From Liolophura sinensis (taxonomy: Eukaryota > Mollusca > Polyplacophora > Chitonida > Chitonidae): a stretch of DNA of 64,000 nucleotides. Below the pieces are notes generated by a model. The model made no database searches and was not told where the DNA came from. It saw nothing but the letters and a program-made list of their open reading frames with translations. A program made the position numbers and the translations under genes. Of the stretch, positions 21,607 through 55,100 are shown piece by piece. Within the stretch, counting starts at the first letter, position 1; every line of letters begins with the position of its first letter. Location: NCBI RefSeq assembly GCF_032854445.1, contig NC_088301.1, forward strand, positions 8,304,281-8,368,280, given 5' to 3'.

Positions 21607-22235
21607 TGATAGGCCCCTATACAAATGGTATATTGATAATAGGCATACACAAATGCTATATTGATAATAGGCCTATACAAATGGTATATTGATAATAGGC
21701 CTACGCAAATGCTATATTGATAATAGGCCTAGACAAATGGTATACTGATAATAGGCCTACACAAATTGTATATTGATAATAGGCCTACACAAATGGTATA
21801 CTGATACTAGGCCTACACAAATTGTACATTGATAATAGACCTACACAAATGGTATATTGATAATAGACCTACATAAATGGTATATTGATAATAGGCCTGC
21901 ACATATTGTATATTGATAATAGGGCTGCACATATTGTATATTGATAATAGACCTACACAAATGGTATATTGATAATAGGCCTGCATATATTGTATATTGA
22001 TAATAGACCTACACAAATGGTATATTGATAATAGGCCTGCATATATTGTATATTGATAATAGACCTACACAAATGGTATATTGATAATAGGCCTGCACAT
22101 ATTGTATATTGATAATAGGCCTACACAAATGGTATATTGATAATAGGCCTGCACATATTGTATATTGATAATAGGCCTACACAAATGGTATATTGATAAT
22201 AGGGCTGAACATATTGTATATTGACATAACAGGCC
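21607..22235. repeat. 28-bp minisatellite with 56-bp higher-order unit
   Basis: About 22 copies of a 28-bp unit ending in gtatattgat. In the right two thirds, two variants alternate: cctacacaaatgg and cctgcacatattg (also cctgcatatattg). This gives a 56-bp dimer repeat. Reading frames across it are repeat artefacts. Confidence 0.93.
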
Positions 22236-22340: not shown

Positions 22341-23938
22341 TAAAAATATGGTTGACAGATAAGGAGTATAACAAGGTATGCTATTCGAGGCTCATGCATG
22401 TGTATGATAACACACAATGGTAGACACGCTTTGCGTATGCAGCTATCTCAAATCCCACGTATACTTGTGGTAGCCTGCCACAACAAATGAACCGTTCAAT
22501 AAACTTCACAAAACCTAATCCATCTTGAAAATATATGAATTCAAACATCTGTTACCCGTGCTGCAGTGAGTCGCCGAATCTCTGCCGGAGGTGCATGTAT
22601 AATACTACGGAAGCTCGTAATAGTCATCTTTGAGATTCAGTGCAGTCTCTCTCTGTCCGCCGAACCGGCTGTGTTCCACGATGACGCGTTCCTTGTGTAA
22701 CCCGTCCCTTGCCAACGTTCCAACCACACCAGCGGCGAAGGCGTCACCTTCCACATTAACAACCGCCCGGAAACGATCTCTGTTCATAACGAATAAACAC
22801 TGATTTTAACTTTTCTGTTTCAGGATTATTCAGGAGGGGCATATCTGATTTACAACTGATTTTAACATATGTATAACAGTCAAAGACACATGGTTGTAGC
22901 AAAAGTTCCCTTTAAAGAGTTAGCTCTACTCCCTTACAGACAGAACTAGACTGACTTAAAGAAAAAGCCTGCCAAAAAGATAGGAGCTGACACCTGAGAT
23001 CAAAATGATTTACACTTTTTAACACTATTTAGACCGAATGGTAGATAACTGAGGTGACTTGAGCAATTCAAATCTTTACTAAAGTGAAAAATATCAACAA
23101 CAACATCTTAGGTTTCTACTTACAGAAACCAATCGATGGCGGCGATGAGTGTAATGTCAGTGGGAATGCCCACTGACGTCAGTACCATCACCATGACGAT
23201 GAGAGAGCCGCTCGGCACAGCTGCAGCGCCTACCGAAGCCGCTACAGACGTTATTCTGCCAAAAAAGAAAGAAACTTTAGCAGTTTTGCTAGAAATTACA
23301 TTTGACATTCAGCTCGGTCATTAGTTACTGCTGGGAGATTTGAAGCCTTCGTGGTCCAGTTGTTCAATAGTGTATTAAACTTTAGTCAGCCATTTCCTGG
23401 TATTTATGTTTAAAATCTACATTTACGAATTTTTGTTGGTATAAATGATGCACATATTTATATAGGCGTATGATTATATATGTTTATCTGTCAATCTAAA
23501 AGTAAAGATAAAATTTATTTACAGGAAATTTTACGTATGCATAGTTAATAGCAGAAAAAGAATGTGTTATAGCCGAATATAATTTCATATACTGTTTTGA
23601 ATGATTTACTGCCCTTAATCCTCTGGATATAATCATACGGTACAAGTACTAAATAATGTGGCCTATTCACTGATTCTTTTAGTTCATTGACATTCACGCT
23701 GTATGTGTGGGTTTATGGTAGGGTGGTGAAAATTAACCACAGCTAGATAAGGACATGATAAGGTATATGATTACTCACCCGACTGTGACCACCTGGCCCG
23801 CGTTCAGCGTCATTCCGTTATACTGTGCCAGGAAAATGGCGGCTATCGCCTGATAGATCGCTGAGCCGTCCATGTTAATCGTCGTCCCTACTGGGGTGAC
23901 GAAATGGACAACCCTGTTGTCAACATTGTTATTTTCAT

Positions 23939-23941
23939 CAG
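23939..23941 (-). other. 1-bp deletion in exon 6 of SLC1 gene A
   Basis: On the minus strand the conserved frame reads ...VTMRCL (cgctgcctg) and then shifts. The downstream [10 protein letters not shown] frame follows only if one base is added. Genes B and C have the extra base at this point. Confidence 0.85.
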
Positions 23942-25054
23942 GCAGCGCATGGTTACCGGCAGAGTGGCGGCGCTGGAACGGAAAAAGAGTTAACCATGTG
24001 TTTACTCTAAGTGGGTATGCTTGGTTTGGTATTGAAGGCACACTGAACAGTGCAGGCTTAACATCAACAATGCCAACGAGGCTGACAGTCGAATCACATC
24101 CCGCAAACACAGGCAACTGGTGCATTAGTCACCATTAGGAGACCACATGGCGAGTTTTGGGACGTAACTACGTAAGAATATTAAAATACGTTACAACAAT
24201 ATACTCGATTGTCTAGAAAAGTCCAAATATTTCCCAAAACTAATATCAACAAATAAACTCATTTATTTCGGTTTAAGCCACAAATATTTCCACTCTTACT
24301 TGCTTTGATGACACAATGCCGAGTTGTACTGGTTACATGTTCCTAAATTACATGTGCATTGAGATGATGGATTCAAGCATGTCACGTGTATACGCAAATA
24401 CGAGAATCGATTTCTTCATATAGCTAATGGCGAAAATGGAATAAGTTTGTTTATACAATAGATTTTATCGCTTACCTAGAAGCCGTCGAAAAGGCTGTGA
24501 TGATCGCTTCCAGCATGTTACAAAGATAAGAAAACGGGTTTCTCCTGGCGAAGAGCCCGAAGACGAGGGGTAAAACGAGGATCCCGTGGATGGCGAATCC
24601 CAGCATGACGGTTAAAACGAACCAGCTGAGCTGATGAAGTACCAACAGTGGATCGTCGATTTCGACGATTTTCGAGGCGATGAGAAAGACAATGCCTATC
24701 GGAGCGTACCTGTGAAACGTATGAGCGTAATGTATTGTTTGTGCGATCACAAACTTTTCTCTGGGTATTTGAGAAGAGGATGATGTTGTGAATCACATTA
24801 AATTCATCTGGGTATCTGAGGATGTGAGTGGTTGTAAGTGAAAAATCCAAGACACGGGTGCGCCTAGTATAAAAACCGTTTTTTTTTTTAGAAACAACGG
24901 CAAAGTTCTGTGTTACAACCCGTAAGATTCATGCAAAAGAATTCCAGTTAACCTAGCACTCGCTACATGCCGTGAATACGAAAAGACAACATAAGCAGAA
25001 ACATTTCAGCGTCATAAAAATTGATCTATAGCTGTATTAGAATTTTATAATTTA

Positions 25055-25215
25055 TTTATTTAGTTGATTGGTGTTTTACGCCGTACTCAAGAATATTTCA
25101 CTTATACGAGGGCGGCCAGCATTATGGTGGGGGGTGAGGGGGAACCTACGACCATCCGCAGGCTGCTGAAAGACCTTCCCACGGCCGGAGAGGAAGCCAG
25201 CATATGCTGAACTCG
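25055..25215 (-). mobile_element. SINE copy, truncated, in gene A intron 4
   Basis: Tail ttgattggtgttttacgccg and body down to gagaggaagccagcatatgc. The head is absent. It ends about 40 bp from the exon 4 donor of gene A. Confidence 0.85.
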
Positions 25216-25742
25216 ACAGAATATTACTAAGTATAAAAACAAAATATCACCCACCAGATGACAAGTGTTATCAACTTCATAACCGCCATATTCAAGGCTT
25301 CGAAAAACGCCGCCAGAGGTCTCCCTTCATCACCAAGCTTAGCGATGACAATTCCCAGAGCGAGGCTGAATGTGATAATTCCCAGCACATTGGTGCCTTC
25401 CGCCTTCACCACGATAGGTTCATAGACAGTCACTGTCTCTGAAAGGAGATCTGAACTAAATAAGACTGTTCATTATTTTTGTAACAAATGTACGTGTGCG
25501 AAATTTCAACAAGCAAACAAATAACTGATTGTTTATTTGTTTTGTTGGTTGCTCCTGGTTTCCGATATATACACAGCCTTTTAGAGCGGTGTCACGCTGG
25601 AACACCTTGCCGAGGGTATACTTAAACATATTAGACAGGATGTTCCTCCCAGCTGGTCACTTATCATACACGTGTGATACGTGTGAAAAACAAAACAAAA
25701 CAAAAACATCAGTTTAATTTCTACATTCATTTCTAACATGTT

Positions 25743-25882
25743 TACCCCGTTTACACAGCCAAAATTTAAAACGGATCAAATCTGAACTGGCTTAAATCGA
25801 AGCCAGTTGTAAAACTGTGTCGTCACACGTCGACGTCAAACTGACTCAGTCCATTCTTAATTTTGCCCTTGTGAACGGGGTA
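25743..25882. mobile_element. 140-bp MITE with taccccgtt termini
   Basis: It starts taccccgtttacacagcc and ends in the near-inverse cttgtgaacggggta. The internal block actggcttaaatcgaagcca is shared with the related element at 52222-52562. Inside intron 3 of gene A. Confidence 0.8.
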
Positions 25883-26457
25883 GTCGTCGATGGTCTAGAT
25901 ATACACGAGTCAGAAAATATTCAAGCAAGACATGGTGTTGCTAACACGTGTTCCTGGTGAATCAAACGTGGTCATGTATTATATATAGCAGGGAGGATTT
26001 ACATGACTGGATGATGCTAATAATACATGTGTAAGAGGTGATACCTACCCTGTGTCGTATTACTGATTTGAACCCTCCGTGACACTTCCTTTGTGGTTAG
26101 CTGAAGATTGTAAAGTATGCATTTTTGAAACAGTACTGTACGTACCCACAACCAAGAAGTAGGCCTATACACCATTCTTACCCATAACAACAACAAAGCT
26201 GTCCTCCCATGTAAAGTTGTTCACCGCATCTACCCATCTACGTAGAAAGTTATACGATACAGTGCTTGGCTCCTGTTTAGCATTCTGTTAGTTATAGCAA
26301 GTTGTGTGACTTACAAACTAAAACATCCAGCATATGCAATTTTTATCTTAAAGGAATAGACTGTTCAAAATTGATGCCAGCATCGCTAAATAGACAGCTG
26401 AAAACTATTTCTAAGAGTGATTTTATTTATATTATCAGACCTTATGCATTCAAATAA

Positions 26458-27203
26458 ACAGTGCATCAATAGTTCCCTCCAAAACAATGTTTGACATTTA
26501 CCAAAATATTCAAAATATGCAATCGTTGTGAAATTTTACACACAGTATTTCACCAATCCAGTCAACACACTGTAGCAAGGATTACCCTGTAGATACAGAT
26601 GTACTCCAATGAGCATGCTCAAACGCATTATCGGCCATATTTTAAAAATTTCACAAACAGATTGAAGATAAGTTTGACTACCTGTACCACCAGATAATGT
26701 TAAAATCTAGCAGAACCATCACGTTCGCATCGTGGGAATGAGGCCTGTGATCCGATTTTGAGGGATGACTAACCACTCCTCCTGAAGCTGCTGTCTAACG
26801 TCATCAAGATAGAACACCATCGTGACACGGCGATACACTGCTTGTTTCAAATGGTCCCACAACTGTTCAGTGGGATTTATTTCCGGGAATTGGCGGGCCA
26901 TTGCATGCGCTCAACACTTTTGTGTTCAAAGAGGACATTTATCACTCTGCCACGATGTGGACGAACACTGTCATCCATAAAGAGAAATTCATTGCCATCT
27001 TGAATCTGTTTGTAAGATTTTCAAAATCCGACTGATAATGCATTTACGCATACTCATTGGGGCAATCTGTATCTACAGGGTATTCCTTGCTACAATGTGT
27101 TATTTGATTACTGAAATACTGTATGCATTTCACAACGACTGGGCAAATATTTTGGTAAATGTCAAACACAGTTTTGGCGGGAACTTACTTTTCATGCTCT
27201 GTT
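26458..27203 (-). mobile_element. Degraded Tc1/mariner-type transposon with long inverted repeats
   Basis: Arms of about 170-190 bp at 26458-26640 and 27025-27203 are inverted copies of each other (shared ttgacatttaccaaaatatt and taccctgtagatacagat). Between them, on the minus strand, is the transposase C-terminal part. A catalytic-domain block DDSVRPHRGRV is followed, after a frameshift near the WPA motif, by FPEINPTEQLWDHLKQAV and VRQQLQEEWLVIPQNRI. This matches the Tc1 pattern (PDLNPIENLW ... EEWxxIP). The N-terminal half is missing, so the copy cannot be autonomous. In intron 2 of gene A. Confidence 0.85.
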
Positions 27204-28411
27204 CAATTGATTTCTAAGGTGAGTTGTATGGATTGTTCTGCCATGAGGTCGCGTATATTGGCCAATAGGTGAAAATTTTGTGAAAATTCTTTTATTTCAT
27301 TATTTATTTTTAACTAAGGTTGCGCAAGCGATTAACATTTTCAACGATCAAATTATTTTTGACCTTTTAGGCAATCCGTTACATCTTAGTACATATACTC
27401 ACTGTATCGTAAACGTGCATGAAATAACACAGATGTATGGTTGTGATAGCTAGCTCCAGACAAAACAGCTTGCTTAAGCTGACCAAATTGTAAAGTATAT
27501 ATTAAGTAATATATTTAGGACCACGTTTTTGTTCAAGTCTATACATACCCTTCGAAAAGATGCTTCGATAATATTGTTTGGAAACAGATTTCTGGAAATA
27601 TAAAAATTTATCAACGTAACTTTTCGTGAGGTTTGCGTACAATAAAATCACATATGAATACCTGCATTTTCCTTTCAATCTGCTTGAAATAATTGCCTTG
27701 AAAGTTGAAAAAAAAATGCCAATGAATTTGTCGGTTAATATATTAATATAATGCGGATTTCTAATTTGTCAGTTTACTTTTAATCACCTTCTGTATAAAA
27801 AGCTATTTTGCACCAGGCAAATATATCCACATAGTATAAATAAGTAATTTTTAAAAGACTTACCGAACTAAATCCAAAAGAGTGTCGATGGTTTTCGTCT
27901 CGGAACCAGACGAGTGGTTACTGGTTGTGACGTCAATACCTACGTCACCACCGTCATCATATTGCGTAGCTCCTGGTTGTATACTGAGAGCCAGAATAAT
28001 TCCACTAATTACCGCCAGGGTGGTGGTAGAGAGGTAATAAACAAGGGAGACAACTCCCATCTTACAGGAGGAGCTGGGATTAAGGGATGTAGTGGCGGTA
28101 ATCAAACTGGAGACGATTAGAGGTATCAGTAGCATCTCCAACATCTGCAGGAACAAATCTCCAGGAAACCGCAAGTACGAGATTTGACGAGAAGTGAACG
28201 GTGGCTCCACGTGGCGGAGACCTGTTCCGAGACCAATGCCGACAGCCATAGCCGTAAAGATTAGGATCAGAAAAATATGTCTCCTTATGGCCTGTTTGCA
28301 TCTCACACAACACTTCTTGGCCATGTCATCGGAATATCTTCTTGGAAACAATGCCACCTTCTCAGAAGGTTCACCGGAGCCTCGATTTCTCTTCAGATGT
28401 TTTCCCGCCAT

Positions 28412-30825: not shown

Positions 30826-33800
30826 CTAAACCGTTTCACTTCCATGTTTTTGAACTTGTTTACTGCTCTGTCCATTGGCCTGTTCATTTACTGTAGAGAC
30901 TGTAGTGTGACAATGTTTCATTGAGACATCGGGCTCGACCGATTCTAACAAGGACTCGTCGTCCTCGGATTGGGCGAGCTCTTTCTGAGACAGGTGATCA
31001 ACGATGGCCGCGCCGATAGAATCTCCGAGTATATTTACAATACCACGACCTCTGTCTCTGAAAACAAAATAAAAAAGTATATGGATAGTGCAAAATTTTG
31101 ACTATTTTAGTCAAAAAGGAAGAAAAATGTCAGATCATCCACTGGAACATGTAATTGTAACTGTTCCTGGCGTAAAACCTATTTCAGTTATACACTGTAT
31201 GGTGTCTGTGCGTCTGTGTGTCGGTCGATAGGTCAAATTGTTTCTCTAACAGGGGGGGGGGGGGGGGGTCTTAAATACTCTTGTAGCATAACTGGAATTC
31301 ACTATGTAACAACTGCAAGACACCAATGTCTTAAAAGCACTGGGAGCAAACGATCAATTCCCTCAACATTCATGAATACATGCAGCATATGATATTTCCA
31401 ACGGGTTGTGAAAATAGAGATCTCTTTGAAAAAAAACATTACTCAGCTTAACTCAACTATACATGCAGAGAAGCTTGATCACGTGTAGATACCCAGAACG
31501 CTTCAATGTGTATCTTGACCTTACAACAATATCATACATAGATGTGGAGAATGATACTCACAGTAGCCAGTCCACGGTAGCGATGAGGGTGATGTCAGTA
31601 GGCAGGCCTACAGACGTCAGAACCATGGTGATGACGACCAGAGAACCACTAGGCACGGCGGCCGCCCCGATAGACGACGCCACTGACGTTATTCTGCAGT
31701 GAAGGGGACATAGAAAAAGCAATACCTTAGCAAATATTTATGAAAACTGTTTTCAGCTGGGAAGGAGTATGTCATATCATATGCATAGTGGACTGTTAAA
31801 TTTAGATTCACGCTAAGTGGTATTAAGTCAAATGCAACAAAAACACAACCAGTGTGAGCCTGAATTAAAACCAACGCCAATCTTGTTTCGTCTGTAGTTT
31901 GGAATAGCTCAGGATGCTCAGATGTTGCAATCGCATCAGCAAATTAAACAATATATTTGAATTCTGTTGATAACGATTTATCGTCCATGACGGAATAGCG
32001 GATATATTTAGCTATAAAAAGCTATATCAACGTTTCAGGCTACAGGTTGATCGTTCCATCAAATGTAATTTCTGGTGTATGGAAAGTGAAGTGTACTTGG
32101 GCAACTCAGAAAAGGGAAAAGTAGGAAGGCTGCAATTTACGCATGCTTTGTTTTTTTACGCCGTGTTTAACAATTCTTCAATCATATGACAACGACGGGT
32201 CATTAGGTGTGTGTGTATATACATACAGTGTGTCTTCTTGTGGCAGCTAGACTCCATACCACCAAAGTGCAGCTGCAACTGGAAAACCATGCCGAAGACA
32301 CCAGACATTACATCTCACCCAGTCACATTACACTAATACTGGGCCAACCAGTCCTGTTTCCTTGTTCTAGGCTCGCAATGCTGAGCGCCAAGGGAGGCAA
32401 CAACAAGTACCATTTTTAAACTCTTTGACATGATCCGACCCAGGTAAGAAAGTTGTGAATAAAATCAAAACTTACTGAGATGCATTTTTGTTTTCTATTT
32501 TCACAAGTGAACTAAAGCCAAACTGTGCTATATACTGTGGCCTATACTTTCGGATTTTTTTCTACCGGCTTCTAAAGAGAAAGAATATTAGGAGAATTGG
32601 TTTTTCCTAATTAACTGCAATTGAAAAGTTCATTTGTCTTTCTGATGGTTAACACTCTAATTGGCACATAATGCGAGGTTGCATTATATGGAATACAAGC
32701 GACGGACCATCGACAACACAGATGCGTTATTTCTTCGAAATTTCCGATCCATTAGCATTTTTTTTGTTTTTACCGAAATGAACAGCAAAAACAAGTTTCG
32801 CTGAAGTGCGTTTACTGTAACCGTATCTGCGTATTCAAACTACAGTCTGGTATATATACAGTTTGTTTCGCTGTTGTTTGGCTATGTGCACTGTCATATT
32901 CAACACACTGAAAGAACGTTGTTAAAATATATAGTAAAGCTAAATTTAGTGCATAAATGTTTCAGCCTCGTTGAAAAGATCTAGATCATGCCTAACTAAG
33001 TGAATTACTTGTTCACTGAGGAGCCTGTTCGTTTTTCACTAACGCGTACCACGCTAACTATCCTCAGACTGTGTTAGCAGAAAAGCAGCAGGAACGAATA
33101 AATTCGTTGTAATTTGGATCTGTATAATTTAAAGAATCCGTTGTTGTAAAATCAAAGTTTTAAACCGCAAAGTGTTTTCATTTGTTTAACGTATGGTATG
33201 TTCAGTATTGTCTCTATACCATCCGTGATTCTCGATTGCCATTGGTTGATCAAGCGGGTTAAAATGTTGACATAAACTTCTCAGAGCTGCAGCCCTTGCT
33301 CATGCACAAGGGATATATGAAATTTAAACCCTGTGTAGCTGAATTACGGCACAGACTGACGTCATTTTTCTCTGAGACGCTAAATTTATATCCTGTGCAG
33401 CTAAATTAAAAAGGTGACGTCATTTTTCTTTGCGGCCGCATTCCATGGCGTTTCATTGTGACGTCACGCCACAACGACCGCTGTCTTCAGTTGACATAGC
33501 TAGCATGATTTTTCTTAGCTCAGCGGAACTGGCTTTCTATTTGACAAATATTGTAGGGCCAGGATCGTTATCTCCGTGTTGAGAAGGGTATATGGAGATT
33601 TAAAAAAAACGGGTATTTACAAAACATTATTCCCGTTCCAAAGGTGAGTGGTTTACCCGACACTCCCATTCCACAATTTGTTGGATCCACTGAATAGTTT
33701 CAGGTAAGAGATAATAGAAGTAACTATAAGAAAGTCAAGGCTTTCGTTGTGGTAGACCTATATTTCGACATACGTTTACGCCATCGTCAGGAAATACACG

Positions 33801-36800
33801 GCACAAATTGTACAAAAATAAATTTATAAATCAGTCTGAATTACGAAACAAAATCAAGAAAGGAACTGGCTTTGTTTTAGGTACACCTCGCCCTCCTTTT
33901 CACCTTTCTGTTTACTTGGATTTCTTTTCTTTTCATTGCTTCACTGATGGTTTAGCTGCCGTGAACTCCGTTCAACTGTTGTTGTTAATCTATATACATC
34001 GATTTTTGTCCGATTGGTCCTCCTGACGATGGCATAAACGTATGTTGAAATGTAGACCTACCACAATGAAAACACTGACCTTTTTCAAAGTTACCCCTAT
34101 TCTCTAATCCTATGTTTCCATCCCTGGGGCCTCCGTGGTTCAGTCGGTTAGCGCGCTAGCGCAGCGTAATGACCCAGGAGCCGCTCACCAATGCGGTTGC
34201 TGTGAGTTCAAGTCCAGCTCATGTTGGCTTCCTCTCCGGCTGTAAGTGGAAAGGTCTGCAAGCAAACTGCGGAAAATCGTGGATTTCTCCCGGGCTTTGC
34301 CCGGTTTCCTCCCACCATAATGCTGGCCGCCGTCGCATAAGTAAAATATTCTTGAGTACGGCGTAAAACACCAATCAAATAAATAAATAAATATTCCTCC
34401 ATCCATTAAACTGAACGCCATCGTATAAGTAAATAGTAAAATAGCTAAAATAAATCGTAGTGGTGTTCCTGACGGGTTATCAATAACTTACATAGCCTAT
34501 ACACTAATATACTTACGCAATGGTCATAATCTGTCCAACGTTAAGCGGTATATTGTTAATCTGAGCTATGAACAGTGCGGCTATGGCCTGGTAGAGTGCA
34601 GAGCCGTCCATGTTGATGGTTGCCCCTACCGGAGCGATGAACATGACCACGCGGGGATCCACGCCGTTATTCTCAACCAGACAACGCATTGTCACAGGCA
34701 AAGTGGCCGCACTGTAGGGCAAAATACAACATCGTAGTAGCGAGGAAAATGCATTGGTAATCAGGGACCAGTCCCAATGAATTTCCTACAATTATTTTGC
34801 TATTCAAATAACATCACTTCAAACATCGTAAATAACTTTATTCGAAACTTTTCTCATCAATCTCTTTAAAGAGTTCCGACTGAGAAAAGGACTTATGATG
34901 TCTTGTGAAAGTGGCCACAGATATTGTATACTTGCGAAGAGAAATCTTTGCAAGTATTCGTGAAACTTTCTAATTTGACAAAGAGGCCCAAATCAGACGT
35001 TAGTAGGTTGGCGTAAAGACATTCTAAAACCAAAATTAGTCAGCTGTTTTGATTTTCTCGGTCAGCTTAGATATAAAGATTTAGAAAGGAGACAATAGTA
35101 TTGGAATACAAGTCATTTACCTTGAAGCCACGGCCAGCATCGTGACAAAGGCCTCTACCATTCCGTATATAAATCTCAGAGGGTTTTTCTTGACAAAGAG
35201 TAGGTAGATGATAGGGACGATGACAAAGCCGTGTAAAATGAAACCCACTAGGACGGTGACGGCGAACATAGCCAGCTGTGTAAGGACACGCTCCGCGTCC
35301 TCCATCTCCACGATCTTCGCAGCGATGAGGAAGAGGATCCCGACAGGAGCATACCTGTGGAGGGAGTGGCAGTCAGTATTATACCTCAAGAATATTCATT
35401 TGGGCGTGTTGATATTTCTTTGGTCAATCTGAATTCTGTGATTGTCAATATTTTTTACAAAGTGATCTGCCCTTTTTATGCGATGTATTGTCCATGAGGT
35501 CAGTATTTTTATCTGACATCAACACCATGCTAAGTCTGAAGTAAATACTACTTCACTAAAAAGATACGGCCACGGTGTTAATTTCATTATCGTGTGGACA
35601 ACACATATCCACAAATATTTTCACTGATTTCTTTCGCTTGCCTTGCCTGCATCTTTGAGAATGTGGAAGAACTAGCTTATCTTAGACCAGATGACGTGTA
35701 ACGTGTTACCAGCAATGCGACTGTAGCCCTTAACGAAGGAGGTCGCAAATTCGAACCAAGATTCCGTTCGCTTTCAGTTGTTTGTCATGAGGTATTTGGA
35801 GTACCTTGCTAAGGAACGGTTTCTTTCACCACCCACCTCATATGTAACAAATACTCGAATTTAAGTGAAACTGTCTTGAGCATGCATGCACGGCGTAAAA
35901 CCCAAATAAGACCAATGTCCAAGCCGTCCATTTTTTGATTATTTACCAGATTGCTAATGCGATCATCTTCATCGTGGCTTTGTTGAGGGCCACAAAGAAC
36001 TGGTGTAAGGCTTGTCCGTCCTCTCCCAGGGATGAGATTATGACCCCCAGGACGACCGCGAAGAGAATTAGCCCCAGAACATTCATTCCCGGGGCAGTTC
36101 CTACCTCAGGCTCATACACTGTAACACATGGACATGCAAGGTCAGCACAACTGTATAACCTAACACCGCATGGGATTTGTAGTCAGGATTTATCTCGTAA
36201 CATTGTGTGGTATTCCAACCTTATTACGATTTAATACATTTCTGTTCATATTTCAGAGAACCGGGTAGGACTTTGGACAAACCACCGTCCTGTCCATGCA
36301 CGTTTGGAAATTCTTCGTACTTGCGAAGGTCTGGCATCAACTTGCGAATGTTCGTGGGTTTCCCCTGGGCTCTGCCTGGTTTTCTCCCTCCATAATGCTT
36401 GCCACCGTCGCATAAGTGAAACATTCTTGAGTACGGCATAAATCACCAATCAAATAAATAAATCTAAAGTTATGCCGAAACAGTGAGACCCTGATTGGGA
36501 CAGAGCTAAGGAAATGACCTCGGACAAAATCCGTTAGTCCAGGTCAGCAAGGACCACGTGTCTATGAAAAGACGAGTAAATACCGATGGCACCTTTATGA
36601 TCCTACAAAAAATGTAAATATCTTGGGCTATAGCCACCTGTAGGCATATTGAATGCAATTAGACTTGGTCCGATGCCAAACAGAAACAGGCTTATACAGT
36701 GTGATATGCACCCTTTTATGTGCATTTAGCGCGAATTATCAACACTTTCAAACGGCATATAGGACAGCTCAACACCTATAGGAATTTAAAACAGACTTAC

Positions 36801-39234
36801 CTGTGGTATTTGTATCATTGTTGTAATTCGGAACTTGCTCTGTATCAATCTGAAATGAATGAAGGACAAATTAATTTTATTTATGCCCCTATCTATTTAC
36901 TGATTAGTCAGCTAAACATGTAGCTTAGAGTACTGCACTTTTATCTGTCGTCTATATGTCAAAATAAAGTTTTCCGGAATGCTTTCATAACGGTTCATCA
37001 GACTGAATTGAGACTTGATGCATGCACGGCTTTAGCGTGGCCAGTTACGTCATCTTCGAGATCCGAGTGCCATTTTATACATTTACAACAAAATTATGGG
37101 CGTTTTGATCTTGTTTTGAACACTGACAATTTCCCGTACTTTTCGTTTCATTGTTTATTAAATGTGACGACAACACCTACAGCAGCTGAAGCATTGTAGA
37201 TAAGTGACGTCTAATAAATTGCATTTAACATCAAGTTTGCATATTTTTTTACCTACTTCTGCATGCCTAAGCCATGATGTTATGCACTATCTAAATATTT
37301 GCACACAAGTAAATTGACACGAGACTGAGTTTCAAAGATTGAGTGCCACTATTTGCCAAATTTCACACTGTCTTCGCTACTCTGCTTTTACTCTCCATGT
37401 TGTGTTCCTTTTTTGTCCATTTTTTTAGCCAAATGAACGACCACTTTGACCTGGATTATACGACATTTTTGAAAACTTGATATTTTGAAGTGAAATTTGA
37501 TACATGGCTTCACCAAGACAATTTTGACGTCAAGTTTGACTTTTTGGGTCCTTTTATGACAAAGGTATGGCAACATTTGTTCCGGAATGCAGTTTGAGAT
37601 CGTTATTATGTTGACTTCAAAGACAAGTTTCGCACACAGGTATGCAGAGTAAACGAACGATAGACAAAATCTGTTCATTCTGCAATAGGATCATTTCCAC
37701 CATCGTAGCCATTTACAAACATATCATAAAATGAAAGAACGCGTGTTCCTAGTTAATACGATAGTGAAAAATGTTTTACAATGTGATACAATTCATTCTA
37801 TTTTGTGCAACAAGTGTCAAGATCTGAGAAACGTATTTGTTAAAATGTTGCAGTATATGAGAGATCGTATGCAATGTATAGCTTTAAAGCGACTTACTTT
37901 GTGTGTAGCCCTGGAATACGAGAAACTACAAGTACGATCAGTTTTTTGGTATATTTCTGATCAAATTAAACATAGAAAACCTAACTCAACTTTAACTCAC
38001 CTTCATAAAACACGCTTCAACCAAATTGTCTGGAAAAAGGTTTCTGAAATATATAGAGAAAACAGCTCTATTTGAATGTAAACAAAACTATAACCACGTA
38101 GTCTTTATAACTAAAAACTGTAACTACAATAGCGTTTATAACTAAATTAAGCTAGCATTTAAAAAAATATTAAAAAATTATAAAAAGAATTCAAAACGAA
38201 TATAAAATTAAGGTTTCTGAAACATATAATATGGAAATTGTTTGCGCATCCGAATCAATGATTTGTTTACAAATATCAGGGGCCGCAACTCTCACTACAA
38301 TTTACAATCCGAAAAGTAAAGTCTAGACCCTCTTATTCGAAGCCCACTTAACGTTACGAGGGCGTGGTGGCTATGGTGACGTAATGCCTATATTATTGGT
38401 TGCCATGGTAGTTACGTGCTCAAAGCGATATGGAGGCTTCGTACAAGTGGGCCCCGGTCTTTTAATCGCACAGACTGTGTAATGACATTTGACATGTCAA
38501 ATGTTATTCGAGTTATTTAATTTGTCCTTTTATAAGGAATAGCTTGGTTCCTGTATATTTCAGAACTCAGGAGAAAAACGGCGGTCATACATGACTCAAA
38601 TAATATAACGGACAACTGGTGCGATGTAGTGTAATCATTTTTGTAATATATGCAACAGTTATGGTACAAATGTTGAAAACTATGTACACAGAACATTAAT
38701 GTACTCGGTGTACATGCAAATATTTTACCGGAACGTGTGTTATTATTAGGAATCCTACCTGACCAGATCCAGAAGGGTATCGGCCGTGTTTGACGGGACA
38801 GACTCGGTCTGGAAGGACGGGGTGAAATTCCCCAGGTCCCCAGGTCGTATGACAACCGCCAAGCCCACCCCGATGACAGCAGCGATCACGGTCGTAGTCA
38901 TGTAGTACACGATGGCCCGCATCCCCATTTTACCCGAGGAGCGCGTATCCAACGACGACGTGCCGCATATTAAACTGGAGAAAATCAAGGGCAACAACAA
39001 CATCCGGAGCATTTGGAGGAATAAATCGCCGGGGAACCGGAGATATAAGATGTCTCTTTTGCTGAACTTGTGACTCACGTGACGTAGTCCGATCCCCAGG
39101 CTGATGCCCATCAACATAGCCAGCACAATTATAACAAGGAAAACATTTTTTTTCATCACCTCTCCGCAGCTAGCCAGGCACCGCTTCTTTGGCTTTGTTT
39201 CCTCCTTCCCCATGGGTGAAACTTTTGCGGACAT
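30826..39234 (-). CDS. SLC1 family transporter gene B, intact, with Gln in TM7
   Basis: Eight coding exons: 38759-39234, 38001-38043, 36801-36849, 35947-36118, 35121-35354, 34517-34711, 31562-31693 and 30826-31057. They sum to 1533 nt (510 residues plus TAG) without any break. The start is ATG 39234; the N-terminus is basic ([16 protein letters not shown]), then TM1. Exon 1 has [20 protein letters not shown]; exon 2 [14 protein letters not shown]; exon 3 is a short loop (16 residues) with two sequons (NDT, NTT); exon 4 has [10 protein letters not shown]; exon 6 ASSAATLP and [10 protein letters not shown] (Gln366); exon 7 AAVPSGSL and GLPTDITLI; exon 8 [12 protein letters not shown] (Asp435, Arg438, Gly439, Asn442). 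Plasma-membrane Na+-coupled amino acid carriage is the family role. The arginine that binds an acidic side chain is kept, but the K+-coupling glutamate is Gln, as in neutral amino acid exchangers (ASCT). The tail is long, acidic then Ser/Gln-rich, and ends SETV. Confidence 0.9.
31252..31268. repeat. G17 homopolymer in gene B intron 7
   Basis: Seventeen consecutive G on the plus strand, so C-rich on the transcribed sense. It lies about 200 bp downstream of exon 8's acceptor side in plus coordinates. Confidence 0.9.
33355..33470. promoter_or_regulatory. Three TGACGTCA sites in gene B intron 6
   Basis: Full CRE octamers occur in ctgacgtcattttt, gtgacgtcattttt and gtgacgtcacgc. The first two lie within a two-copy imperfect repeat (aaatttaaaccctgtgtagct / aaatttatatcctgtgcagct). 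Possible intronic enhancer, or just a repeat that happens to carry the site. Confidence 0.4.
34125..34393 (+). mobile_element. Full-length SINE in gene B intron 6
   Basis: Head ggggcctccgtggttcagtc, B-box gagttcaagtcc, body, and tail gagtacggcgtaaaacacca with aaataaataaata. ccatcc-type flanks suggest a short target duplication. It ends about 120 bp before exon 6 of gene B. Confidence 0.92.
36250..36465 (+). mobile_element. SINE copy, 5' diverged, in gene B intron 3
   Basis: The tail and body are clear (tttcccctgggctctgcctg, gagtacggcataaatcacca). The head is not recognisable. Confidence 0.8.
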
Positions 39235-40714: not shown

Positions 40715-41405
40715 TATAGATAAACCGCATTACGAATTATGATGGGTTCCCTCCTCTTGAGGTCAGGTGACGCTTATACCCAGCCGTTCTGGGTAACTTT
40801 CAAGCCACGCAGAATCCGCCAGGGTTACCAGAATAACTACACCCGAAATTAAACACGCAAGAGGCATTCACAAAACGTTACCCTACACTTGTGCGGAGTC
40901 ACGTGACCACAATTTCATGTGTCTGAACACCAGCCATACCCACCCTGCGAAATCAAAAAGTAACCTCATCATGTTACTGGTGACTGTTTAGGGTGCATCA
41001 AGCTCACCTTAATGTCAAATGTGGTAGTGCATTTGTCCACAAGCAACATGCTGTGTTCTGTGTGGGTATGTTTGGAACATAAAGTAACTCATGTGGAGGT
41101 TTGTTTTTTTTGTTCAGTATAGATGTGCGAGATAAATCATACCAGGTTTATGCTCGACTGGTCGTCTAACCTACTTTTGCCGTACTTAAGAAGTAAGGGG
41201 TTTCAAAATCATCGAGCGAACAGCACGCTTGGAAAATACAAGACCTTTAACGATATAAACCCAGGCACCCGCACCAACTCATGTAGACTACAAACTCATG
41301 CACAAATCCGAGCTCACACTCATACTCAAGCTTGTGCACATATGCCCATCCGATGCACAAACTGTTGCTCAATTCATGTACAAACACGTCACAAAATCAT
41401 GCACA

Positions 41406-41960
41406 AGTTAAGAGACAGCTATACATAAATTCACGTAGCCTACAAGCTTACATGTATACCAGAACTCTTGCACAAGTTAAGAGACAGCTATACATAAATT
41501 CACGTAGCCTACAAGCTTACATGTATACCAGAACTCTTGCACACGTTAAGAGACAGCTATACATAAATTCACGTAGCCTACAAGCTTGCATGTATACCAG
41601 AACTCTTGCACAAGTTAAGAGACAGCTATACATAAATTCACGTAGCCTACAAGCTTACATGTATACCAGAACTCTTGCACAAGTTAAGAGACAGCTATAC
41701 ATAAATTCATGTAGCCTACAAGCTTACATGTATACCAGAACTCTTGCACAAGTTAAGAGACAGCTATACATAAATTCACGTAGCCTACAAGCTTACATGT
41801 ATACCAGAACTCTTGCACAAGTTAAGAGACAGCTATACATAAATTCATGTAGCCTACAAGCTTACATGTATACCAGAACTCTTGCACAAGTTAAGAGACA
41901 GCTATACATAAATTCATGTAGCCTACAAGCTTACATGTATACCAGAACTCTTGCACAAGT
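41406..41960 (+). repeat. 69-bp minisatellite, eight copies, open in one frame
   Basis: Eight nearly identical 69-bp units beginning cacaagttaagagacagcta. As 69 is 23 codons, one plus-strand frame stays open across all copies and into both flanks (41332-42054), giving a 23-residue repeat that starts QVKRQLYINS. The flanks read as degenerate catgcacaaa repeats rather than protein. No domain is recognised and no start context stands out, so it is listed as a repeat and not a gene. Confidence 0.9.
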
Positions 41961-43587
41961 TCATGCACAAACCATAGCAAAAACACAAGAAAAATCTAGC
42001 CGTGAAAACAGACATTCGCATATAAAAGAGAAAGTATATAAAGTACGAAATTAAGACCGATTCATGCGAAGAGAAGCAGTTAACTGTTTTCAGTGATGTA
42101 AAAAAGGCACAAAGAATGTTCTACGCGAATGACTGGAATCAGTATCCAAATCGTGTACCATAAAATTTATAAGATAATCAAAAGATGCATATATCTCAGG
42201 TGAGCTTTAAGAGTCACTCAGGAGCGTAGGGGGCAATTGAAAAATGGAGAGAGGGGCACTATTCCAACCAATGAGGCGAAGGTCTAGGGGCCCAATCTTT
42301 TGAAAGTACTGGACACCATCCCCCATGCACGGCTTATATACTGATGTCTTTTTTGATGTCTATAGATTCCCCGAACATTGTGACATTCATGTTGTTTGTG
42401 ACACAGGTGATGAATGATGAATGATGTTGTGTTACTAGGACTTGTAACTGCCTGGGTTGGAATACAATAGGTAGAATTCTACCTTCTCTCAAAGATGTCA
42501 AAATAATGCGACCAAGCAACATGACAAATTTATACATTTACATTTGGCATGGTGTCAACACTCGTTCTGGGACTACTTTGAACTCTCAGACCTTGTTTGC
42601 GCCCTCTACTGGGGAAATCCCTTAACTATATTTGGGATGTGCAACGTTAACAAACGTACGAGCAATAAAATGTCACCGTCGATCCAGCAAATTCTTTCAA
42701 GATGAAATTTCACCCTTGTTGAGAGCTGCAGTAATCGTATTTTTTATTCATGGTAATTCTGTCATGTTCCAGTTTGACATTTGATTTGTTTGTGTTTTCG
42801 ATGTGAATCATACATTTAGTGACATTTCGACGTAACTTCCACGGTGACGTGAGCACTGTTTCTGGAGGTACAGTTTGGCGTAGTGATACCGAACTAAAAC
42901 GTGGTGATATTGTTGAAGACTATCGCTATTCGTTAGGCGTCATCGAGTAGAAAATTTGGGAATTATTTACGAATTAATTTCGATCAGTTTTGATATTTGC
43001 ATTCACTTTCTGTTGAGTAGTTTAATATTTATTACAAACTCTTTTTGTTTGCAGGTTTACGAGTTACGTGATCAGGCACTTCGACGCCATAGTTGAACTT
43101 GTAAGTTTGTCATTTTGTCATTTGTTTGAAATGAGCGCAGGGGTTAAACGGAAAGCAGCCGCACCAGACATCACCAACCTCAGGGAACAGCAGACACCTG
43201 GACCTCTTTCTACACCTTCCGAGATTCTGCCATGTAATGGCGGTGATGTATTGGATAAGCCGTGTTTTGTTGGTATGTCCACAAGTGATATTACACACTT
43301 GGCTTCCTCCCAGTCTCCCTTGGTGTTGTTAAATAGTATGATAAATACAGCGCCCTAAGATACATGTATACCTAACCTGCTAAATACTGGTTCAGATGGC
43401 TGGCCACTTTATGATCATGGCTAACCTGCTAAATACTGCTAAACACGAGATTGGTCTATGCCAATGCTCTCTCCTCGCTTAAAGAATTCAGAATAAAATT
43501 CAGTTCAGGTAGTGATTGGCCGGTTTCTGTGATTGGCCGGTTTCTGTTGAGTACTGAGTAACGCATGTAAGTGAACAGGAAGGACTG

Positions 43588-49182: not shown

Positions 49183-52100
49183 TCAAAGATTTGTGCTTTC
49201 GTCTCCAAGGTATGAGGCATTATGTATTCCATTCACGGTGACGTCACCGTTTGCGATGTTTACACTTGTAATAGCATGTTTCTTCTCTGTGTGACCGTTT
49301 TCTTTGGTTTTATTTGCATCCATCTTGGCAAGTTCCTTCCTGGATAGCCCGTAGACAATCCCCGCCCCAAGGGCGTCTCCAAGAACGTTAACGCTGGTAC
49401 GGCACCGATCCCTGAAAATAATGTGTTCCCACTGGATATTAATCGCACGTAATGTAGGGTTAATACATTGATTTTATTATTTTTGAGCGATACACCTTAG
49501 AACTGTTCAAGAGGAGATGTTTTAGGAATAAAGTGATTTACTCCGATTTTCCACAGGAGTGGATGTAGGGCACACCTAAGTATTTTTGATAACTGTTACT
49601 TCGCTTTGTTTTTGGGCCTTACGCCTCAGCGTGTATATCACTGCAGCTCACTGTCATGTAATTTTAAAAATTTAGCAGTTTTTAGGCAATTTGTGTACAA
49701 GGAATGCCGTTTATACCATTACAGCATTGTGCTTATTATACGGTAAAATGACTCTAAAATAAATCCGAAATTCAGGCTGGTGTCATTCCACACTAAAACA
49801 ATTCTGATGTTAAATCCTAAATAAAGGATACATCTAGCGCAATAAATTCATTCCTGACAACAGATTAATTCGTTATAACCAACACTCAAAAAAATTAATC
49901 TGTTAATTTTAACATAAAGTTTGTTGTCTGAATGAAGCTGGAATGTATTCTGTTATTGCAGCAGTTTGTTATGTTAACGCTCATATTTTATTAATTTCAC
50001 ACAAAGATTCTATTAGACTAATGGGATATTGTGTTGAATGTGATGTTATAATAACAGAATACATTCTAGCATCACTGAGTTAACCGAATATCGGTTAAAC
50101 TTAACAGATTAATTTTTTGAGTGAATGGATTAATTCGTTACGAGTAGCGGATATGACGGATCGACATGCGATCAGGGGAATTCGGAACAAATTTTTAAAT
50201 GCATAGATCCAATAGTTAGTTCAAAATTTCGGGCGAAACCGCCTTCAGGCGAAAAATGGCCCGAATTAATACACTTACAAGAACCAATCAACTGCCAGAA
50301 TAACTGTCACGTCTTCCGTTGGCAGGCCAACTGCTGTTAAAACGATCACCATGGTAACAAGGCCGGCCTGAGGTACACCGGCGGCTCCAATGGCTGCGGC
50401 TGTAGCAGTTACACTGTCCGGATAAAAAGAAAAAAGTTAGTGCAAGCTATTCCACCAATAATCGGTGGATCTCCGTATACCGGAGCAACCCACTCAACGT
50501 AGGGGCAGCCAGAGGGCATGGAGCTAGTTTATGTCGTAGTTCAGTCATTTTTATTTGCACTGGTAACACTGCATGGATGTAGGCGTTTTACGACGGCAAA
50601 GAGGTTGGGAATTGGATTGAGAATGTGATTTATTTGTTTATTTGATTTGTGTTTTACGCCGAACTCAAGAATATTTCACTTATACGACGGCGGCCAGCAT
50701 TATAGTGTGAGAAAAGGGTATTTAATGTCGTACCTATATAGGTGTGTATATCTACTTGCTTAGTTAATCGTTGGCTTACGCTGCCCATTTCACTTTTCAT
50801 GATAGCGGCTGTGCATGTAGGAGTATAAGAAGTCGGCCCAACGTGAAGAAAACAACCGCCCTTCGCTAAAAGTACATGACAAACCATCTGATTTAAAGCC
50901 TCATCAGAACGAGAGAAGAAGCATGTGAGTAGCGTTGTCAGTTCTGAATAACGAAATATTTCCCGCTTCCCGTAAATAAACAGGAACGTGCATTTCATAG
51001 GTGCTTAAAGTCGCATGACCCTTATTTCCGATTTGTTGAACATCTCCGGGGAAACTGCAAGAAAATTACATTATGTAAAATGCATGCAGGCCCCTATGTC
51101 ATGCTCAAGGCATAAAGCTAAGTTTTTTTCCATATAAATGTTTTGGTATGAGATTTTTTTTGGTATGAAAGTGGTGGTTGAGAAATGTACGGTATGAAAA
51201 CAAAAGCCTGAAATTAAGTTTTTGTCCTAAGACTTAAGTGCCATTTGCCGTGAATCACGGCGCTCAGCGATATCAATGTACACTAATATAGTAGGCACCA
51301 GTACACCTCAGTGAATATCTTATGGCTATATCTATTTATTTATATGATTGGTGTTTTACGCCGTACTCAAGAGCCCGGGGGCCAATAGAAATAAACCAGA
51401 GATATTCCTATTTAATATCTTTAAGAACATCATCAGTGGAGTTTGTCATCATCGGGTGAGGGAAACGGTATACCTATGAATTTTAGTTCTGAATTATTCA
51501 TTCAAATGTCGGACAAGGTTGAATGCAAATTTCGGGATGACCTCAACAAGATTCAAGTGCTAGGAATATAAAACACCTGGACGATATTGGTGTGTCTCGC
51601 TGGTTATCATGACAACATCGTAAACAGCCTGTAAACGCTTGTAAAATCGTATTTCGAGAAGCATCAACGGGAACTGGAATACCTTCTACTTTTTCAAATA
51701 GTATGTACATTTTATTCTGCTCTTAAGAAATAAGAGTAGCGTTTCGGTCCACTGACATTCGCTTTAGTGTCAGTATCGATGGCAAACCAGGTCAGACGGT
51801 GTCAGGATGACGGCGTTACTGGACCACAGCCTCATTTGACACATGAAACACGTATTCTTTGTCAGAGGGTATGAGCTCAGGTCTCGTGAAACTGTACACC
51901 AGGAGCATTTGAAGATGTCACCCGTGATGGTCAAGGTCATTACTTCTTTAGTGTGGAAACTACTGCGGTCACGGTGATGAGGTAGGCAATGGAGTCAAAA
52001 ACACAAACAATCTGTCTCAATCTTTGTTTCTAATAACACTTCATGCACAAACATTCTCTTTATCTAGAGTATGTACAACAAGATTCTAACCAAAACCAAA

Positions 52101-55100
52101 AATAAGTTTACTGATGAATGCTGATTAAATACTTCTGTGCGACGGCACAAGTGGTGAGGATAAGCCAAAACAAGATTATATGTATGAGCATCTAACCGAT
52201 TCCGAAGGTCAAGTTTGTCTAGCCCGTTCACACGAGCAAAGTTAAACTGGTTTAACTTACGAAAGTGTATTTGAACCAGTTTGACGTCGCGCGTGTGAAA
52301 GCAAAGTGGGGTCATTTAATCCGGTTTATTTGCCCTAGCTAGCGACGTGGCTTTAAGTCAGTTTCAGGTCTTGAGCCGGTTTATCTGTGAACGGTACCTG
52401 GATTAAGTGCTCCTGGTACGTGGAAGTCAGAGTGACGTCGTAATTACCAAACGTGTGAACGGGCAAATCCCTGAACGGTCAAAACCAGCTTGCCCATATG
52501 GTCGTGTGAACACACGCATTTTTACAACTGGCTTCGATTTAAACCGTGTGAACGGGGTATATTGACACCAGTGATGTAAAGCAAGCATAGAGAGTGGCAC
52601 ATGCACTGTAAGGAGTAAGAAAAGCGCCCGGGAATCTGAGCTTTCTTGCCCTGGCCCGAATACAAATTTTTTCACATGACATAATCAGAAAAATGGTTGT
52701 TTGTGACACCTGAGTTGACTCTAGGGGCCATGAGCCGATACTAACCTGACAGTAATGACTTGTCCAATAGACAACGCAATACCGTTAATCTGGGCGATGA
52801 AGATAGAAGCGACAGCCTCGTACAGAGCCGTGCCGTCCATGTTTATGGTGGCTCCGATGGGTGCGATGAACTTGGCCACTCGAAGGTCGACGTTGTTGTT
52901 GTGTTCCAAACAATTCATGGTGACGGGCAGAGTCGCCGAACTGCAAACAAATGCGGGAAATAAGATTTTATATCTCCACACTGGCAAGCTCTAGGTTTAT
53001 ATCTGGCCCCAGCCAGGTGTAAATAAACGCACTGTATTTAAAGATACTTATACAGCGCTTAAGTGAGTCAAGATAGAGAGCCAACAAATCTTTCTTTTCT
53101 TTTAGCAGTAGGCGAAAAAAAAAACCGTGTATATGTTTGTGATGATCTAAAAGTCTATATAGCTTGATTTTCTTAACAATTTATATCACCGGAAATTTAT
53201 TAGATTGGTTTTTACCCGGTGGGTTTACGCTGGAATATAAGCCCAGAGGGACCGCATTATTGGCGCTAATTCAAATTAGATGAATACAGAATATGGTTTT
53301 TCTTTGGTAAATTCCAAGACATAAACCATTCCATGCCAAGTAGTGTCCCACGAGAACAATATTGGTGGTATTCAAACTTCGATGTGTTTAACTCGCCACG
53401 ACATGGCTAAAATATTGCGAATTTGGCGTTAAGTCACAATCATTCATTCAATGTGTATAGCATCCTCTAATTGCTAAGAGCATAAAATTGCTTGTTTAGT
53501 TTACCTGGAAGCTGTAGCGAGTGCTGTGACGATCGCCTGCACCATGCCGTATATAAACCGGTAAGGGTTCTTCCTTGTGGCGATGAAGTAAATAATTGGA
53601 AGAACGATGTATCCATGGATTATCAAACCCACGATTACGGTCACGCAGTACAAGCCAAGCTGCGTGAAAACCACTTCCGGGTCATCCATCTCCACCATCT
53701 TGGCTGCTATCAGAAACAGAACTCCTATCGGAGAATACCTGAGAAGAATAAATGAGAAACAATTAAAAGACAACGCTAGAACGCACACGGTTATGATTGG
53801 AGGAAAGCAGTGCTACATGGAGAGACCTGATGGACATGTTTATCTAAATTCATATTCGATTCAGCCAGAGGTGGAATAGGCTGTGTGGAGTACAACTCTT
53901 AAGCTGATGAAGCCATTTACCCTCCCGTCATTCCTTACCCAAAGATTTACTGAGGGGAAACAGCGGCTATGTCTTTAACTTTAGGCAAATTTATCTGCGT
54001 GTGTATATCATCTAATACATAAGGATTTATTTAAACATTTCAACATAGATACCATACATATGAGATATGAAGGTTTCAAAGATAGTGTAAATGCTTACCC
54101 CTAGGGGGTAACGTTGCTTCTAAAAGAAGTAAACTAACAATCTGTTCACATCGCTGTCTCCACACCGTTTTTTTACTGCATTTTTAAACTTGTTATACAG
54201 CGGTATCTGAGGCAAACACGTACCAGATGACAAGGGTGATAAGTTGCATTGTGGCGTCATTCAGGGCTTCGAAGAACTCAGCAAGAATTCGGCCTTTCTC
54301 CTTCATACGTGAAATGATACAGCCAAAAAATAAGGAGAAGACAACCAAACCCAAGACGTTCATTCCAGGTTTCGTGACAACTTTTGGTTCATATTGTTGT
54401 GGCTCCTCTGAAACTGAGATGACATTTAGGTGCATCGTCATGAATAGTTTTCTTAATGCAGATGCTAAGGTGATATTGCATCAAAATTTTTATAGGCCCA
54501 CATGCCGAGTGAATTGCATTTTCCACAAAGCGCAGGGTATGGAACAGCTTGGTACACAGGTTTCTGTTTTCTTCCGGAATGGACAAGGTATTTGTATTCC
54601 CCCGTTATTTTTTATGTTCGTGGGGACTGGCATGAAGACAAGAAAGTAACTGTGACAGCTTCGTGGCCGTTTGCCCATGCTGAAGTGCCTTTCATCAAAG
54701 GCGTATATATATGTGCGTGACACGCGCGAAAGTTCGTCAGTTACATGCCATAAAACGGTGGTTTACCACGTCCACTCATAAAGCTGACCGACAGCGTACC
54801 GATGTGGTTAATAGAAAAAGATGCCTGTTTTTTAATCACTAAGAGACACGAGGTGTTGGTTCAAATCCAGCTCCAGACATGGAATCCTCGAGATCTCCCC
54901 ACCTCCATAGTTTTAGTGGCCTTAGTGCCAATGCTGCGTTTACTTGGTCTTACATGCAGTTCGCTGATAATCATCAACATAACCTGGGCCCATCTGCACA
55001 TCACATACAGATAAAGTTCGTCAGTAACTTGCCGTTATGCACTCCATGCGCAGCGGTTTCCTCCAACATGTTTATTTCTTTCTTTATTTATTTGATTGCT

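Follow-up and report, generated by a model that had tools for sequence, protein, structure and literature searches.

What can a carrier of the excitatory amino acid transporter (EAAT) type still do once the residues of its H+ and K+ coupling have been replaced? This question is raised by a 64,000-nucleotide stretch of the genome of the chiton Liolophura sinensis (NC_088301.1, positions 8,304,281 to 8,368,280; hereafter the window), which contains three SLC1 genes, A (28411-22605), B (39234-30826), and C (62261-49183), all on the minus strand and arranged head to tail. A preliminary description had placed both A and B at 30826-39234. This is correct for B; however, that region contains B only, and A lies outside it, at 22605-28411. 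Judged from their sequences, A and B are an SLC1 (PF00375) pair from an EAAT-like ancestor. We consider it probable (approximately 0.6) that B is a Na+-dependent acidic amino acid carrier that takes aspartate before glutamate and operates without H+ or K+ coupling. Since A is broken as assembled, firm statements on sites and function apply to B.

The membership of B in SLC1 is clear: its spliced product matched PF00375 along the whole profile (positions 3-386 of 387) with 356 bits, above the curated cut-off of 27.9, and all seven of its modelled exons are open. A six-frame search of the window located every motif quoted in the preliminary description for transmembrane helices 7 and 8 (TM7 and TM8) and hairpin 2 (HP2), all on the minus strand. 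We used EAAT3 numbering anchored on E374, with which K269, D444, and T448 fall into place. The TM7 motif is at 23862-23876 in A (NMDGS), 34600-34614 in B, and 52829-52843 in C. The HP2 tip reads VPSGS in A (23204-23218) and B (31642-31656) and VPQAG in C (50362-50376), and TM8 reads DRFRA in A (22764-22778), DRGRG in B (31042-31056), and DRCRT in C (49396-49410). The aligned site confirmed that the coupling Glu is replaced by Gln in A (codon 23850-23852) and in B (codon 34588-34590). T448 is also replaced, by Ala in A (22764-22766) and by Gly in B (codon 31042-31044). A and B therefore lack the EAAT features Glu at 374 (proton carrier) and Thr at 448 (K+ ligand) and retain Arg447 with Asp444.

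A and B share S370, Q374, A410, S413, G414, S415, and, in hairpin 1 (HP1), A334; Ala at 334 is also present in EAAT2. A deletion of one codon after HP2 is likewise common to both (exon of 132 nucleotides, versus 135 in C). These shared residues and the deletion show that the resemblance of A and B is not due to chance. Other positions were retained in both genes, namely, Y373, A408-A409, L416, D444, R447, N451, D455, the NMD motif, and the Na+-site motifs, including YY..TT in TM3. Among 57 columns invariant across 16 Glu-type rows (6 animal, 10 bacterial), B altered 11 and A 14; five of the columns altered in B are T370S, E374Q, A414G, G415S, and T448G. In the same count, members of a group of genes with Phe or Leu at 374 (the Phe group, described below) altered 12 to 17 columns, and Gln-type bacteria 9 to 14.

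The preliminary description regarded this combination as unlike either EAAT or ASCT. The pair of Q374 and R447 is not unprecedented: the same state occurs in archaeal GltPh, in 7 of 80 bacterial relatives (the best 80 of 583), and in the engineered ASCT2-C467R. However, its combination with T448A/G and the HP2 tip AAVPSGS looks new. The tip was absent from 80 bacterial HP2 strings (two of which look misread) and from the other 15 SLC1 genes of this genome, and its form is unusual; its Pro-Ser pair, on the other hand, is also present in EAAT2 (PSAG). In the titles, abstract openings, and passages covered by our search, which left most subscription papers outside, we found no description of an animal SLC1 protein with Gln374 and Arg447 or with T448A/G and D444.

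Published work on these sites, cited here from the passages available, outlines how B may operate. E374 is the proton carrier of EAAT3, and the K+ site consists of D444 and T448 together with carbonyls of HP2 and HP1 (PMC10160106). With no carboxylate at 374, B would be without a proton carrier, and its empty state would lack the E374-R447 pair; with T448 absent, its K+ site would be incomplete. In archaeal homologues, Gln at this site lets HP2 close without K+, and its bond to the G415 carbonyl stabilizes the zipped hairpin (PMC10160106). By analogy, the Gln of A and B may hydrogen-bond the HP2 backbone and allow closure without K+. E374Q was reported to abolish K+ coupling and concentrative uptake, and T448A to lower uptake by 80% (PMC10160106). 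The loss of K+ coupling proposed in the preliminary description gained in likelihood from the replacement of T448, a K+ ligand that it had not used.

The predicted substrates follow from what was retained. D444 sets amino acid over dicarboxylate substrates and R447 acidic over neutral ones (PMC12668577). In B, D444 would hold the amino group, R447 the side-chain carboxylate, and N451 the main-chain carboxylate, and the acidic preference in the preliminary description is as expected for A and B with these three residues kept. The T370S mutant is listed with a glutamate affinity of "2Red", a code whose footnote is not visible in the available table, and a wild-type value for aspartate (PMC3958442, Table 1). 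Judging from such single mutants, Ser at this position is expected to weaken glutamate, not aspartate; therefore, an aspartate preference is predicted for B.

Several observations weigh against carriage by B without H+ or K+ coupling. The Leu after the HP2 tip (L416) is kept, whereas transport able to run without K+ was obtained by changing its counterpart (EAAT1 L448A/T and EAAT2 L447A; PMC6769379). The double alanine at 408-409, which is linked to K+ binding (PMC10160106), is also kept. EAAT3 with T448A alone retains approximately 20% of its glutamate transport, shows no shift in selectivity, and still yields K+-induced outward currents (PMC3737229). Reports on E374Q also conflict on net transport and K+ coupling: the table of PMC3958442 gives "Yes" for both net transport and K+ interaction, its text describes the mutant as locked in exchange, PMC10160106 reports the loss of K+ coupling, and in work cited by PMC6769379 mutation of this Glu removed H+ rather than K+ coupling. 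Moreover, tree support is uneven. It ranges from 81/80 to 98/91 for A with B, and the grouping of these two with the Phe group was unresolved in two trees and obtained 80/75, 91/94, and 95/92 in the others.

A carrier of the kind that we favour for B may take either of two forms, which are about equal in probability and between which the sequence does not decide. Tentatively, B may be an obligate Na+-dependent exchanger, as the preliminary description proposed: the loaded carrier would cross the membrane, and the empty carrier could not return, so that its kinetics would resemble those of ASCT and its substrates those of EAATs. The text of PMC3958442 describes EAAT2 E404D and Y403F, as well as EAAT3 E374Q, as mutants locked in exchange, Y373 mutants, like E374Q, lose concentrative transport (PMC10160106), and ASCT2-C467R, with Gln and Arg, lost glutamine transport and gained aspartate counterflow (PMC6668440). 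The EAAT-type L416 of A and B also fits this form. However, GltPh has the same Gln and Arg and is a net Na+-aspartate symporter (PMC6769379); therefore, Gln alone does not mean exchange, and the exchanger proposed in the preliminary description does not follow from it. The natural HP2 changes A410, G414, and S415 may, in addition, restore the return of the empty carrier.

The same Gln underlies the other form, a net Na+-aspartate symporter of the archaeal type, in which Gln would hold HP2 shut and so let the empty carrier return without K+; we regard this form as possible, although somewhat doubtful. Gln is the archaeal residue at 374 and is said to stabilize the zipped HP2, the Na+-site motifs are retained, and T448 would be needless if no K+ were bound. 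However, in the reports consulted (PMC10160106, PMC3958442), EAATs in which Glu alone was replaced by Gln did not gain net transport independent of K+, position 415 is Ser in A and B rather than Gly, and L416 is unchanged.

It appears improbable that A and B are still K+-coupled through D444 and the HP2 carbonyls and are functional EAATs with an altered pH dependence. D444, A408-A409, and L416 are kept, EAAT3 with T448A retains its K+ response, and some reports connect the Glu with H+ and not with K+, all of which would suit such a carrier; Glu and T448 are both lost, however, and the HP2 tip carries further changes. Even less credible is that A and B are degenerating copies without transport function, which the one-base frame break in the HP1/TM7 exon of A would suggest, since the seven modelled exons of B are all open, those of A contain no further stop or frame break, the nonsynonymous divergence (dN) is well below the saturated synonymous divergence (dS), and the changes common to A and B include the gate and the pocket.

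The frame break of A concerns exon 5 (23779-23972), which has 194 nucleotides, versus 195 in B and C, and the halves of which are read in different frames. The other six modelled exons of A are open. The 467 codons aligned between A and B show 53.5% identity; dN is 0.40 and dS approximately 3.6 (saturated). Because of this difference, we concluded that both copies have long been under purifying selection, and therefore that the break in A is either recent, making A a recent pseudogene, or an assembly error.

We then surveyed the assembly to which the window belongs (609 Mb, 632 contigs) with the PF00375 profile, which gave 78 exon matches, 17 of them to TM7 exons. The genome has at least 17 SLC1 genes; the TM7 exon was read in all 17, and TM8 in 16 (not in C3:12.63; positions are given by contig in Mb). 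Glu is present at 374 in four genes (C, C1:31.18, C11:26.69, and C14:1.26), and Gln only in A and B. Six genes have Phe (five) or Leu (one) at this site (C7:9.089, 9.105, 9.122, and 9.140; C4:18.47; C11:28.81), and the remaining five have Ile (three on C6, two on C3). When the genome was searched with the core of B, 40 candidates yielded 29 matches, none of which added another gene of the A/B type.

The six genes of the Phe group lie at C7:9.085-9.147 Mb (four), C4:18.458-18.469 Mb, and C11:28.801-28.811 Mb. Their D444 is replaced by Ala (five) or Thr (one), Arg447 and Thr448 are kept, and in the YY..TT motif of TM3 the second Thr is replaced by Leu or Phe. It is possible that these genes encode SLC1 dicarboxylate carriers, convergent with the mosquito dicarboxylate transporter and bacterial DctA, and we infer that carriage by them would be K+-independent. 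Against this, dicarboxylate transport by EAAT3 required changes of both D444 and T448 (PMC3737229). According to the same paper, published in 2013, every eukaryotic SLC1 protein other than the mosquito one and its Aedes orthologue retains D444 and T448. The six genes without D444, and two others (A and B) without T448 but with D444, conflict with that statement.

Two further sets of paralogues were noted in the survey. Five very divergent SLC1-like genes, with Ile at 374, lie at C6:34.366-34.400 Mb (three) and C3:12.632-12.685 Mb (two). Their TM7 reads NADGSALYIT or SANGSALFIT and their HP2 IPSVPSSS, LPAIPSSS, or near variants, and His replaces D455 in the four of the five in which TM8 was read. 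The gene at C1:31.177-31.186 Mb groups with human EAAT2 (98/98, 98/96, 99/96, and 99/96 in four trees, in which the EAAT2 row is partial) and has the EAAT2-like HP2 tip AASIPSAG. These rows suggest that the EAAT2 type existed before this animal and vertebrates diverged. With PSAG in both EAAT2 and the C1 gene, the notion that PSGS in HP2 is wholly foreign was rejected in part.

We next considered whether Gln or Glu is the older state. The bacterial relatives compared were the best 80 of 583 confirmed ones, chosen by likeness to EAAT-like rows, and are therefore a biased sample. Glu is present at 374 in 73 of these 80, and in 71 of the 73, those with a readable TM8, D444, R447, and T448 are all present; in all seven with Gln, TM8 reads D..R. 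A first regular expression for TM8 left 27 of the 80 motifs unread. With a second expression, 73 were read directly (72 D/R/T and one D/R/S), five were one step out of register (D-M-x-R-T), and two (L088 and L132) were left unread. Because 73 of the 80 relatives have Glu, this residue is likely to be ancestral, and the Gln of A and B is probably a derived state; Gln as a hold-over from before EAATs was not favoured. The Glu majority sits badly with the statement that the change from Gln to Glu is a eukaryotic innovation (PMC10160106), with the bias of the sample toward EAAT-like rows to be kept in mind. A scan of viral contigs with the core of B gave 17 pattern matches, none of which was a relative by tblastn.

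The trees were built with ten trait columns removed in all but one. The paralogue rows in them were joined from exons by eye, with the variable loop left out and the Ser at the border of exons 5 and 6 set by analogy. The outgroup tree, of 395 columns, combined 11 animal rows, among them three of the six Phe genes, with 13 rows taken from the 80 bacterial relatives. It supported A with B at 98/91, these two with the Phe group at 95/92, and animals apart from bacteria at 100/100; the set of A, B, C, the C14 gene, and the Phe group obtained only 72/96. A 15-row tree without an outgroup gave 100/99 for the last set, 91/94 for A and B with the Phe group, and 81/80 for A with B, and the corresponding values in another tree were 98/96, 80/75, and 84/81. 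Two of the five Ile genes were used in three trees, and all were left out of the 15-row and outgroup trees. The tree with the very long Ile group and the N-terminal part supported A with B at 89/86, and the tree with the trait columns at 83/80; neither resolved the rest.

A clade of all Glu-type animal genes, with A, B, and the Phe group outside it, was not rejected by the approximately unbiased test (p-AU 0.43 in the outgroup tree and 0.19 in another), and the Glu-type rows formed one side of a branch in two trees (43/91, with the Ile group, and 91/94). The pairing of A and B with C and the C14 gene alone had a lower likelihood and was not rejected at 0.05 (p-AU 0.19, 0.095, and 0.065). The shortest account, which is probable and not proven, is that Glu was lost once, before A and B separated from the Phe group.

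Taking these results together, we venture, with less than even confidence, that one animal lineage lost EAAT-type H+ and K+ coupling once and then reused its carriers, giving Na+-driven aspartate carriers (A and B) and a six-gene dicarboxylate set in which D444 was lost and T448 kept. If this is true, the order of changes differs from that proposed for the mosquito dicarboxylate transporter (PMC3737229), and the genes form a natural series for separating ion coupling from substrate choice. They would also suggest that SLC1 dicarboxylate carriers arose a second time in animals. The current model of how brain glutamate transporters are coupled to K+ includes Glu374 and Thr448 (PMC10160106), and the tests cited for them rest on mutated mammalian proteins (PMC10160106, PMC3958442). 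As a natural animal protein that has lost both residues but kept the acidic pocket during long purifying selection, B would offer a background for asking whether a carrier without K+ coupling is confined to exchange or can perform symport in the archaeal manner. The wider interest hinges on the presence of the same genes in related species.

Seven exons were modelled for each gene, with AG and GT at the inner borders; the further small exon expected between exons 2 and 3 from the exon phases was not identified in A, B, or C. Gene B consists of exon 1 (38759-39234; start codon and N-terminal membrane helices), exon 2 (38001-38043), exon 3 (35947-36118), exon 4 (35121-35354; between TM4 and HP1), exon 5 (34517-34711; HP1 and TM7), exon 6 (31562-31693; HP2), and exon 7 (30826-31057; TM8 and the C-terminal tail). 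A candidate for its exon 2 at 37550-37591 was dropped for lack of a fitting acceptor, which is present at 38043. Besides exon 5, gene A comprises exons 1 to 4 (27864-28411, 27549-27591, 25255-25438, and 24476-24709), exon 6 (23124-23255; HP2), and exon 7 (22605-22779; TM8 and tail). Gene C is an EAAT-like paralogue in which E374, PQAG, and DRCRT are present as usual; its exons are at 62261-61825, 56189-56147, 54407-54224, 53738-53505, 52940-52746, 50413-50279, and 49411-49183.

Repeats were also observed in the window. A recurrent interspersed repeat with a largely similar peptide, found in several places and on both strands (25064-25326, 34160-34405, and 36201-36449), looks like a short interspersed nuclear element. 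Tandem arrays occupy 251-1369 (37-base unit, approximately 30 copies), 21616-22224 (28-base unit, approximately 22 copies), 41400-41961 (69-base unit, approximately 8 copies), and 58481-59891 (59-base unit, approximately 25 copies). The 69-base array sits inside a plus-strand open frame of 255 codons.

Among known systems, EAAT1-3 (SLC1A3, SLC1A2, and SLC1A1) belong to the same gene family as A and B, with 51-61% identity in the compared core, and share D444, R447, N451, D455, NMD, the Na+-site motifs, and L416. They differ in that A and B have Gln for E374, Ala or Gly for T448, Ser for T370, the HP2 tip AAVPSGS (AASIPSAG in EAAT2), and the one-codon deletion after HP2. The Protein Data Bank (PDB) also contains an EAAT1 construct in which the 374 site is Gln (printed row of 7awq). 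ASCT2 (SLC1A5) has the same Gln (PDB row NMDGAALFQC). However, it has Cys447, Ala370, and Thr448, whereas A and B have Arg, Ser, and Ala or Gly, and thus no neutral residue at 447. Its partial, long row had an unsettled place in the tree with the trait columns and was left out of later trees. ASCT2-C467R (PDB 6rvx/6rvy; printed row DRSRT) shares Gln and Arg and performs aspartate counterflow, but it is man-made and keeps T448 and GIPAGG, whereas A and B are natural and come from an EAAT-like ancestor.

Archaeal GltPh (PDB row) combines Gln at 374 with Arg and Asp in TM8, as A and B do. It differs in its HP2 tip, GVPGAG, and in keeping T398. Its row was used only in the tree with the trait columns, where its place was unsure. 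Common descent of A and B with prokaryotic Gln-type carriers found no support in the outgroup tree, in which the animal rows, including A and B, stood apart from the 13 bacterial rows (three of the Gln type; no archaeal row). Mosquito CuqDCT, with D444N and T448A, carries dicarboxylates without an EAAT-like K+ response (PMC3737229), and bacterial DctA has Ser at 444 and Ala at 448. A and B share the loss of T448 with both proteins but keep Asp444; therefore, amino acid substrates are expected for A and B, unlike for CuqDCT and DctA. At the position of L416, A and B have Leu, the Phe group and ASCT2 have Val, and GltPh has Ala.

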